This document shows, piece by piece, positions 2-43,508 of a stretch of 43,508 nt of DNA. The position numbers and the translations under genes are program-made. The notes under the pieces are model-generated. The model was not told where the DNA came from and did not search any database. It worked only from the letters and a program-made list of their open reading frames with translations. Each line of letters opens with the position of its first letter. Positions within the stretch are counted from its first letter, which is position 1. The DNA comes from an uncultured Sulfuricurvum sp. (GTDB taxonomy: Bacteria > Campylobacterota > Campylobacteria > Campylobacterales > Sulfurimonadaceae). The stretch is taken from contig CAIMUF010000035.1 of the NCBI GenBank assembly GCA_903844635.1, positions 1 to 43,508 of the forward strand. Direction: 5' to 3'.

Positions 2-3000
2 GGAACCTACACCTATACGTTGGACAACACCAACCCGGCGGTCAATGCACTGAACACCAACAGCACACCGCTTACGGATACCTATACCTACACCCTCACT
101 GACGGGGATGGTTCTACCACCACTGCGGTTCTTACCATTACGATCACAGGAACGAACGACGCACCAGTAGCCGTAGCGGACGTTAATACGGTGAGTGAGG
201 ATGCAGTGAACGTAGCTGGGGATGTTACTCCTGGTACAACTGGTCAAGATAGTGATGTGGATGGAGATACACTAAATATAATCGGTGTTGCTTCTGGTAC
301 TCAGACATCAACAAGCGGAAATGTTGCGACAGCGGTTGCAGGAACATATGGTTCAGTGAACATAGCGGCAAACGGAAGTTATACCTATACACCTAGTGCT
401 GCTGCACAGGCACTAAAATTGGGTCAGAATGGAACTGATATCTTTAGCTATACAATTAGTGACGGAAATGGTGGGACAGCAACAACAACCTTAACAATTA
501 CCGTTCAAGGGGCTAATGATGCACCGACTATAACAGGACCATTGACAGGTACGGTTACTGAAGATGGAACAACGACAGCAACAGGAAGCTTGACAATCGT
601 TGATCCGGATGCGGGCGAGTCAAACTTTGTTGCACAGACAGGTATTGCAGGAACATACGGAACCTTTAGTGTAACAGCTGCAGGTGTATGGACATATACA
701 CTTACGAATAGCGCAGCAAACGTACAGGCACTGGCTCAAGGACAGACTCCGACAGAAATATTTAGCATTACAAGCGCTGATGGAAGTATTCGTTCAGTAG
801 TTGTGACCGTCAACGGAAGCAATGATGCTCCAATTGCAGTTGCGGATACCAATGCAATTACAGAGGAGACAACAACGGCTCCAACTACTGTAAGCGGAGA
901 TGTTACTCCGGGTACGGCAGGACAAGATCGTGATATTGATAATGGAGCGACATTCACTGTTACGGGTGTTGCTGCTGGAACACAGACATCAGCGTCGGGC
1001 AATGTTGGAACAACAGTTGCCGGAACCTATGGTTCAGTGAATCTTGCAGCAGATGGAAGTTATACCTATACTCTTGATAATACAAAAACGGCAACGAACA
1101 GTCTCAAAGCAGGACAAACGGCTTCAGAGGTCTTTACCTATACGATTACGGATAATAATGGTGCAGTCAGTACTACAACACTTAGCATTACGATCACAGG
1201 AACGAACGACGCACCAGTAGCCGTAAATGATAGCTATAATATGAACGAAGACGGAGCGGCGATCACCCTTGCACCATTGACTGCAGATACAGATCTTGAT
1301 GGTGATACATTAAGTGTACAAAGTATCAACGGAACAACATTAACTCCGGGTACAGCTCAAGTTATCATCGTGCCACACGGAACAGTCAATGTAAGTGTTG
1401 CAGGAGTGATTACGTTTACCCCTACAGCGAACTACAATGGAGATGCTACATTTGCCTACATCATCAGTGATGGACATGGCGGAACTGCGACAGCAAACGA
1501 GACGATCACTATTGCGGCAGTAAATGATGCACCATCAGGTACAGACAAAACTATTACTATGTTCGAAGATGGTCGTTATACTGTAGTAGTGGCTGATTTT
1601 GGATTCACAGATCCAAATGATTCACCTGCAAATAACTTCCAAAGTGTTATTGTTAATGTTCCAACTTCAGGTGCTTTATTTTACAACGGTGTTGCAATTA
1701 CAAGTGCCACGACAATAACTCTTGCTGATCTAAACGCTGGTAAGTTAATTTACTCTCCAGCGGCGAATGTGAATGGTACTGGTGTTGCTAACTTCACATT
1801 CCAAGTTGCTGATGACGGTGGTACAACAAATGGTGGACAAAATACTGATCAATCTGCTAATACACTTACATTCAATGTGACTCCAACTGTTGATGTTTCA
1901 GCTAAATGGATCGATTATTGGACTTTCAATGAAGGAACAGGAACATCTACAACCAATACAAATACATTTATAGATCGTATAGGTACAATAACGAATAATA
2001 CACCACACACTGGTCAAGTTGCTGACCCTTCAGCTGATTTGCGACCAACATGGACATTGCCAACGGATGGTCGTAATGGATCAACTGCTATGCAGTTTAA
2101 AGGAGTTGGAGGAGCATCTTCAGCCCGTGATGGAGGATGGATAGCTCTTGATTCATCCGTTACAAATCCTTTGGCTGGACTAACAGCGAGTAAGGCAGCT
2201 ACCCTTTCTTTTTGGATTAATACCACTCAAGTAGGTAGCACTATAGGGTGGGATTCACCTTCAGTTATTGGTATGGAAAACAATGGAGCAGTTGCCGATA
2301 TTCAATGGGGTTGGATTGACGCAAACGGAAAAATTGGTTTTGGAATGGGAGATAATACCGGACTTATGAGTACCAACGTTGTCAGTGATGGAACATGGCA
2401 TCAAGTGACCATTTCTCATGATTTTACTAGTGGGAAAACCTATTTATGGGTGGATGGTGTTAATAATGTCAATGGTACAGTTCTCTTGGCAAACACAGTG
2501 GTAGCAACGAATAAATTTTTAGGTCTTGGTGTAACTGCGGATGATGGTGCAACGTCAAATCGCTTTTTGAATGCTAAACTTGAAGATGTCCGAATTTATG
2601 ATAGTGTTCTTACAACTACTCAGGTTCAAGCGATTTATGAAACAGAATTGATGGGATATCAAAACTCAGTGATTGCAAATGACGGACATGCATTACATTT
2701 TTCTTTAAGTGTTAATAATACTACGAGTCTTATTATCTCTGGTCTGCCAAATGGAACAATAGTGACAGATGGTGGAACGCATTCATTTACAGTTGGTGCA
2801 GCTGGAACAGCAGATATTACAGGATGGAATGCGTCAGAACTTGAAGTGAATACTTATGGAACTGGATCATTTATGATGATGGTAACAGGAAGTGATGCCG
2901 CTGGTACAAGCGTTAACCAATATTTATCTGTTGTAACAGCAGCGGATATGTTTACGGGAACAACATCTAATGATTCCCTTACTGGAAATACTAATGATAA

Positions 3001-3547
3001 TGTTCTCACTGGAGGTGATGGTAACGATACGCTGTCTGGTGGAGCTGGGAATGATGCTCTTTTTGGAGGGGCTGGAAATGACACATTAGACGGTGGATCC
3101 GGAGCAAATGTTTTGTATGGTGAAGCAGGAAATGATACTCTTGCTTATAATGGTGCGGATAAATTTATTGACGGTGGTGCAGGAACGGATACTTTGCTCT
3201 TAGCGACAGGGTCTAATATTGATTTTAGTATACTTAACAGTACAAATGATCCGATCAAAAATATAGAAATTATTGATCTTAATACAACAAGTGCACATAC
3301 CCTTGTTAAAATATCATTTTCTGATGTGATTGATATGACCGATAGTAATCATCAATTAACCATTCTTGGAAATAGTGGAGATAGTGTAAGTTTACAAAAT
3401 ACTACTGGAGCTACATGGACAAAAGATACTACAGCCGTTACAGAGGTTATTAATGGTTCTTCTCATGTGTTGGATGTTTATCACAACAGTGCCGATTCTA
3501 CGGTATTGGTCAAAGTAGAACAGAGTATTAGTGACCAAGTTCTTTAA
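2..3547 (+). CDS. Giant VCBS/LamG/RTX-repeat surface adhesin, 3' part
   Basis: The reading frame is open to the left edge, so the true start lies upstream; about 1,180 residues are visible. In order there are VCBS-type modules separated by GTNDAP/GANDAP/GSNDAP linkers (near bases 150, 515, 820, 1200 and 1515), a tandem cadherin/Ig-like region (to about 1900), a LamG/concanavalin-like domain (about 1905-2650) and RTX calcium-binding nonapeptides of GGxGNDxL type (about 2950-3180). The end is an Asp/Ser/Val-rich tail typical of type I secretion substrates. Such proteins are exported in one step to the outside and mediate attachment or biofilm. The next two genes encode LapG- and LapD-like proteins, which suggests a LapA-type adhesin held at the outer membrane by its N-terminus. 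That N-terminus, with any LapG cleavage site, is outside the window, so the link is inferred from gene order. Confidence 0.9.
136..175 (+). repeat. 40-base exact direct repeat, copy 1 (VCBS linker)
   Basis: This 40-base stretch coding around GTNDAPVAV is identical to bases 1186-1225. The offset is 1,050 bases, exactly 350 codons, so both copies are read in the same frame. Base-level identity across a synonymous linker suggests recent duplication or gene conversion within the adhesin. Confidence 0.85.
1186..1225 (+). repeat. 40-base exact direct repeat, copy 2 (VCBS linker)
   Basis: Identical to bases 136-175. It lies at the junction between the VCBS modules and the following cadherin-like module and keeps the frame. 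Confidence 0.85.
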
Positions 3548-39397: not shown

Positions 39398-40344
39398 GTG
39401 AAAGAAGCAATCATACTTCTCAATATGGGTGGTCCTAATAATCTGCGTGAAGTTGAGATGTTTTTAACCAACATGTTCAATGACCCTGCGATTATTCGTA
39501 CAAAAAGTGCATTATTACGTCGTTTTATTGCTGGAATAATTACTCTTTCGCGTGCTGAAAAATCTCAAGAAATTTATCGTCAAATCGGTGGGAAGTCACC
39601 CATAGTAGATTTAACAACTTCATTGGTGACTAAACTTCAAGCAGCGGTTGGTGAGGAAGTGATTGTTGATTTCGTAATGCGTTATACACCTCCGATGGCA
39701 AAGGAAGTAATTGAAAAACTAAAAAAAGTGGTGTTCAAAAAGTCTATCTTATCCCTTTGTTTCCCCAATATTCAACTACTACTACCGCTTCTTCACTCGA
39801 TGATTTCGAAGATACTTCGCGACGAGTGGGTTGGTTCCCTATCATGGTTGAAATCAAACATTTTTTTACGAATGATAAGTACAACACACTTCTGCTTACT
39901 CTTATTAAAGAAACGCTTGCTGACAATAACCCGAATGATTTTGAATTGATTTTCTCAGCGCATGGTTTACCTCAAAAGATTGTTGATAGCGGAGATCCGT
40001 ATCAGCGACATGTTAGTGCTCATGTTGAGCTATTGAAAGATAAATTTCACAAGGAAGGAATTTATTTTCGAGGGGTTCACCTGGCGTATCAATCTAAAGT
40101 AGGGCCTATGAAATGGTTAGATCCCTCTCTTGAATCTATGCTAAAGAGTTTGAATACGAAAAAAGTGATTATTGTTCCTATCGCATTTACGATTGATAAT
40201 TCTGAAACCAATTATGAACTTTCAATGGAATACGCTGAAATTGCTCATGAACTGGGTTTCAGTGATTATCGTGTTTGTAAATGCCCCAATGATCATCCTG
40301 TATTTGTTGATGTTCTAAAAGAGCTTTATGAGAAAATGAAATGA
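39398..40344 (+). pseudogene. hemH: Ferrochelatase hemH, split by a -1 frameshift at an A7 run
   Basis: From GTG 39398 the protein reads as ferrochelatase (AIILLNMGGPNNLREVEMFL, FMRYTPPM) to about residue 110, then changes into a non-homologous tail ending at 39949. The rest of ferrochelatase, starting VYLIPLFPQYSTTT and with catalytic His in SAHGLP and Glu in DNSETNYE, lies in the -1 frame to 40344. The switch maps to AAAAAAA at 39721-39727. One extra A, or a -1 slip on A-AAA-AAA, restores LKKSGVQKVYLIP. It may be a real mutation, a sequencing error or recoding. HemH inserts iron in protoporphyrin IX; a heme-dependent organism usually needs it. The HAD gene follows after 8 bases. Confidence 0.85.
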
Positions 40345-42992: not shown

Positions 42993-43405
42993 AGCTTTCC
43001 CTTTGGAAGATGAAAGGGGTTCTCCCCTATTTAGCAGCTCTTTTTTTAAATGCTTTTACTGATTTAGGGCATAAGATACTTATTCAAAACACTCTTTTTA
43101 AAGTCTATGATAATCAAGAACAAATCATACTTACCGCGATTTTAAATGCTTTTATCCTCCTTCCTTTTATCGTATTGTTTACTCCCGCAGGATTTTTGTC
43201 ACAACGTTTTTCACGTTCTCATGTCATGCGCTATGGTGCACTTTCTGCCATATTTATCACATTGGGAATTACGCTTGCCTATTATCAGGGATGGTTTTGG
43301 TGTGCTTTTGGTTTTACGCTTCTCCTTGGGGTTCAAGCCGCTTTGTATTCACCGGCTAAATATGGATACCAAAATTTAAATCTGAAGTGCAATTTTTTGA
43401 CTTAA
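42989..43405 (+). pseudogene. LplT-type lysophospholipid transporter (MFS), 5' part, broken by an IS30 element
   Basis: The frame could begin at TTG 42989 (overlapping the DUF695 stop) or ATG 43010 (MKGVLPYLAALF); the second has no good ribosome site. The first 125 or so residues match LplT/Aas-type MFS proteins: FLNAFTDLGHKILIQNTLFKVYDN, a run of transmembrane helices, SPAKYGY. After KYGY the sequence loses similarity and the frame ends in sequence belonging to the adjacent insertion element. In Campylobacterota this domain often heads a large protein fused to acyltransferase and acyl-ACP ligase parts, which would recycle lysophospholipid. The remainder presumably lies beyond the element. 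Confidence 0.8.
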
Positions 43406-43508
43406 AAAATCATACCTATTTTTAGCTTAAGCCGCTGCTACTAATCCATAAAAAACCTCATTGGGTGTTTTCCAATTTAAAGACTTTCTAGGTCTATTGT
43501 TTAGCTTA
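43375..43508 (-). mobile_element. IS30-family insertion sequence, right part in the window
   Basis: The element begins somewhere at 43369-43385, where similarity of the LplT-type gene ends. It continues past the right edge. Its likely terminal region reads GAAGTGCAATTTTTTGAC (43384-43401). The far end and target duplication are not in the window, so the boundary is approximate. Confidence 0.7.
43427..43507 (-). CDS. IS30-family transposase, C-terminal fragment
   Basis: Read on the minus strand, the last 26 residues are KLNNRPRKSLNWKTPNEVFY followed by GLVAAA and a stop. LNNRPRK-(S/T)-L-(N)-W/F-KTPNE is the C-terminal signature of IS30-type DDE transposases. The rest of the gene runs past the window edge. 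Confidence 0.82.
   Translation of the reverse strand, partial: KLNNRPRKSLNWKTPNEVFYGLVAAA

Follow-up and report, generated by a model that had tools for sequence, protein, structure and literature searches.

The ferrochelatase gene hemH1 of this Sulfuricurvum strain is split by a one-base change of frame at CTA-AAA-AAA-GTG, which probably reflects a very recent loss-of-function mutation that shortened a run of eight As to seven in one of the genome's two ferrochelatase genes. The gene occupies positions 39398–40344 (plus strand) of the window, that is, of the whole 43,508-nucleotide stretch analyzed, which is contig C35 of a 2.67-Mb draft genome (G000) in 86 contigs. The break matters little beyond annotation, being either a one-base error in the record or the fresh loss of one of two ferrochelatase genes in this strain. 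Of more use is the finding that some members of the genus possess a second ferrochelatase, hemH2, which is divergent. If hemH1 is truly dead, hemH2 must do the work, which would make this strain a natural test of hemH2 function.

The run reads CT-AAAAAAA-GTGG, with the seven As at 39721–39727 falling in the zero-frame codons CTA AAA AAA GTG. The zero frame opens with a GTG at 39398 and stops at 39949 (plus strand; 183 aa). It encodes KLKK at ...GAA AAA CTA AAA AAA, resembles ferrochelatase only to about residue 110 (TIGR00109, 5–115), and is off-family from the GTG at 39728 onward, where an out-of-frame tail begins. One base back, in the −1 frame, the family sequence SGVQKVYLIP resumes and continues to the end of the gene (39727–40344, plus strand; stop TGA at 40342–40344). 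In profile searches with PF00762, the 5′ and 3′ parts scored 108.5 and 203.1 bits (cut-off of 27) and matched positions 1–124 and 108–315 of the family, respectively. The 3′ part retains the motifs SAHGLP and DNSETNYE, which align with the regions of the catalytic His and Glu of ferrochelatases. A full-length PF00762 domain with both catalytic motifs is present, but across two frames, in agreement with a preliminary description of this DNA that had placed a break at AAAAAAA and had the family sequence restored by a −1 shift. hemH1 is one broken gene, neither two genes nor a chance resemblance. Neither part has the whole ferrochelatase fold, and explanations that invoke two distinct genes, or a restart within the gene at the TTG at 39757, were rejected on that ground.

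The nearest relative, Sulfuricurvum sp. MAG C5_maxbin.024 (JAUYRN010000016.1, hereafter G002), shares 95.8% DNA identity with the window over 33.2 aligned kb. Its hemH1 lies among the same genes, inside a collinear 33-kb alignment, and has eight As at the site (CTA AAA AAA AGT) in an intact 315-aa gene whose protein is 99.4% identical to the window copy; an intact close orthologue, otherwise collinear, differs by the single indel. The next relative (G008, 94.9%) reads CTA AAA GAA AAT at the site. All 34 genus orthologues in a codon-by-codon alignment were open through the site, and three further orthologues (G061–G063) were uninterrupted, bringing the other Sulfuricurvum orthologues without a break to 37 of 37. 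The long A run is common only to the window gene and G002; around the site, the other 33 aligned orthologues have a longest A run of 3–7. In the comparison of A counts in relatives, which had been proposed beforehand, G002 does have eight As and an intact gene, but most relatives have no such run at all, rather than one of eight. A public genome collection scanned for the site yielded the G002 record as the sole match, in a collection that may not include the window genome's own records.

Between the window copy and that of G002 there are 15 synonymous and 2 non-synonymous differences in all, 4 and 1 of them upstream of the site and 11 and 1 downstream. hemH1 is undecayed on either side of the shift, so the indel is either very recent or an artefact. 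The excess of synonymous changes indicates that the downstream frame either remains under selection or left it only very recently, and it bears out the earlier observation that this frame, with both catalytic residues, has not decayed.

A search for a second hemH, also proposed in the preliminary description, recovered one intact on another contig (G000:C77:68495–69412; PF00762 positions 2–315, 302 bits). This hemH2 is ∼46% identical to hemH1 and aligns along its length with solved ferrochelatases, AHGLP and DNSETEFE motifs included. hemH2-type genes occur in 11 of the 41 genus genomes and form one clade (support 100/100), to which the single ferrochelatase of an order relative, G038, is sister (100/96). 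That sister gene is the only ferrochelatase found in G038 (99% complete), and a hemH2-type gene is the only one found in G060 (85% complete). Directly after hemH2 (both genes within L001:1471–3857, G000:C77) comes a gene for a CrtD/CrtI-like FAD oxidoreductase, nearest to desaturases of these types and scoring below the cut-offs of those models. Judging from its sequence, hemH2 would supply ferrochelatase activity, and enough heme, in place of hemH1, and loss of hemH1 would plausibly be tolerated because hemH2 is intact elsewhere in the genome.

If the break is a mutation, one A would have been lost from the A8 tract within the Lys-Lys codons of hemH1, most likely by replication slippage, splitting the gene after ∼110 residues and leaving a 183-aa truncated product predicted to lack the catalytic part. 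The event would be very recent, as the downstream frame is undecayed, and we infer that the seven As are truly in the cell's DNA. Other fresh gene breaks occur in this lineage, namely the loss of one coding base at C77:85775 and, at 43368/43369, a repeated element inserted into an MFS/acyltransferase gene.

An assembly or base-call artefact is a less probable but substantial possibility, in which hemH1 is in reality intact and unremarkable, with eight As, one of which went missing from the consensus. Sequencing indels most commonly take the form seen here, the loss of a single base from a homopolymer, and the genome is a draft of 86 contigs with another one-base coding deletion at C77:85775. 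Around the site hemH1 shows no relaxed selection, and the total absence of decay together with the housekeeping role of hemH fits an error equally well.

The comparison with G002 points the other way. Two alignments were made, the window against G002:C2 (33 kb) and C77 against G002:C35 (93 kb), 126 kb in total. Over the 33.2 kb of the window, the hemH1 run was the only coding indel, all others lying between predicted genes. Among 114 A/T runs of at least 7 in G002 that are pure in the window genome, three differed in length (the hemH1 run and two intergenic T runs); agreement extended to 15 of 16 runs of 8–9 and, at length 7, to 96 of 98. The agreement of the longer runs and the lack of any other coding indel in 33 kb imply that homopolymer miscalling is not general, and a general homopolymer error in the assembly was rejected on the high concordance across both alignments. 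Contigs break off about 117–141 bases inside copies of a single repeated element, which gives the assembly the look of a short-read de Bruijn product. Short-read technology makes few homopolymer errors, and an A8 is rarely miscalled. The homopolymer and contig-end facts thus lean toward a real mutation over a single error, although a lone error in the assembly or consensus would be indistinguishable from a mutation. Singleton frameshifts validated by BLASTp were expected to be mostly sequencing errors in genomes of that era (Antonov et al., PMC3711429).

Over the 93 kb of C77 there was one clear one-base coding deletion, at G000:C77:85775 (L062:5775); the affected gene is open in G002. The site reads GGGGGAAAAA-TGG vs. 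GGGGGAAAAACTGG in G002, and the truncated gene resembles, by eye, an NAD-dependent epimerase or nucleoside-diphosphate-sugar reductase. An indel near C77:89618 precedes the start of the next gene.

At the contig end of the window (43369–43508), the repeated element starts inside a fused MFS transporter/acyltransferase gene that is intact (614 aa) in G002. The element or its 29-base tip has 29 matches across the genome, and all 10 of those checked sit at contig ends. Its reverse strand reads, by eye, like the C-terminus of an IS30-type transposase, with no family match. The element had no match in any of the nine relatives searched, which suggests a recent insertion-sequence expansion. At the opposite end, positions 20–3547 encode a large, repetitive protein of surface type that combines RTX calcium-binding repeats with bacterial cadherin-like and Ig-like domains and possibly begins before the contig start.

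It is very unlikely that −1 ribosomal frameshifting at A_AAA_AAA, or slippage by RNA polymerase, keeps the seven-A gene functional by yielding enough full-length ferrochelatase. Both parts of hemH1 are conserved, and a formally correct X_XXY_YYZ heptamer does lie in the zero frame (A_AAA_AAA, 39721–39727), with AGGAAG, a Shine-Dalgarno-like hexamer, at 39702–39707 (plus strand), 13 bases before the run, exactly as had been described. In-frame A_AAA_AAA or A_AAA_AAG is common in the window, however, with 18 instances across 40 ORFs, its main genes, the hemH1 site included, and G002, whose gene needs no shift, has the identical heptamer and AGGAAG. The hexamer falls within the codons GCA AAG GAA GTA (Ala-Lys-Glu-Val), which specify conserved residues; it is present in 5 of the 34 orthologues (G002 and G008 among them), none of them frameshifted, and absent from the other 29. 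Its spacing had earlier been likened to that of the dnaX stimulatory site. On the codon sequence, both elements read as by-products of coding for KEVIEKLKK, the heptamer being two Lys codons after CTA. The 100 nt past the run fold no better than shuffled sequences (z = +0.49, for pseudoknot-free folds), and a literature search turned up no relevant report of a frameshift in hemH or another ferrochelatase gene.

Conservation of the frameshift site is a criterion for recoding (PMC3711429), and here 0 of the 37 genus orthologues need the shift. Since no relative needs it, the site did not evolve as a signal for recoding, and programmed recoding was rejected on this ground together with the frequency of in-frame heptamers and the lack of a detected stimulator structure. 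Of the three explanations put forward in the preliminary description, mutation and base-call error both stand, whereas recoding is left unsupported; eight As in a relative combined with another hemH, the outcome it had named as telling against recoding, is essentially what was found.

Any site of this kind will probably leak at a low level. Measurements in E. coli put motif heptamers that lack stimulators at no more than ∼10 times a 0.055% background (PMC4066793). For E. coli RNA polymerase, the insertion rate at an A7 in one gene was measured as ∼0.39%, and a reporter test detected no slippage on poly(A) (PMC6260861). Carried over to Sulfuricurvum, these figures suggest that leak-through at the hemH1 site would be small. 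That the strain still uses the frameshifted gene in this way, with a small amount of ferrochelatase made by adventitious −1 slippage at A_AAA_AAA alongside that from hemH2, seems marginally less probable still. Least probable of all is phase variation, in which the tract would switch hemH1 on and off reversibly: a coding homopolymer that is 7 long in one genome and 8 in a close relative speaks for it, but the tract is short and unconserved in the genus, and phase-variable genes do not usually encode housekeeping enzymes.

Programmed −1 frameshifting of the dnaX type combines the heptamer A_AAA_AAG with an upstream Shine-Dalgarno sequence and a downstream stem-loop. hemH1 resembles it in having an A_AAA_AAA heptamer and an upstream purine-rich hexamer. 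It differs in that the last base of the heptamer is A rather than G, the site is unconserved in relatives, no downstream stem-loop was found, and the zero frame yields a truncated enzyme of no known use. As a member of the ferrochelatase family HemH (PF00762, TIGR00109), hemH1 is unlike others in its reading frame, broken after ∼110 residues, and like them in that its parts cover the family end to end with the catalytic motifs kept. It also resembles, with no difference in the features tested, the singleton frameshifted genes described with GeneTack, which represent either recent indel pseudogenes or sequencing errors (PMC3711429): the break occurs in one genome only, the family match extends on both sides of it, and the change is of one base in a homopolymer.
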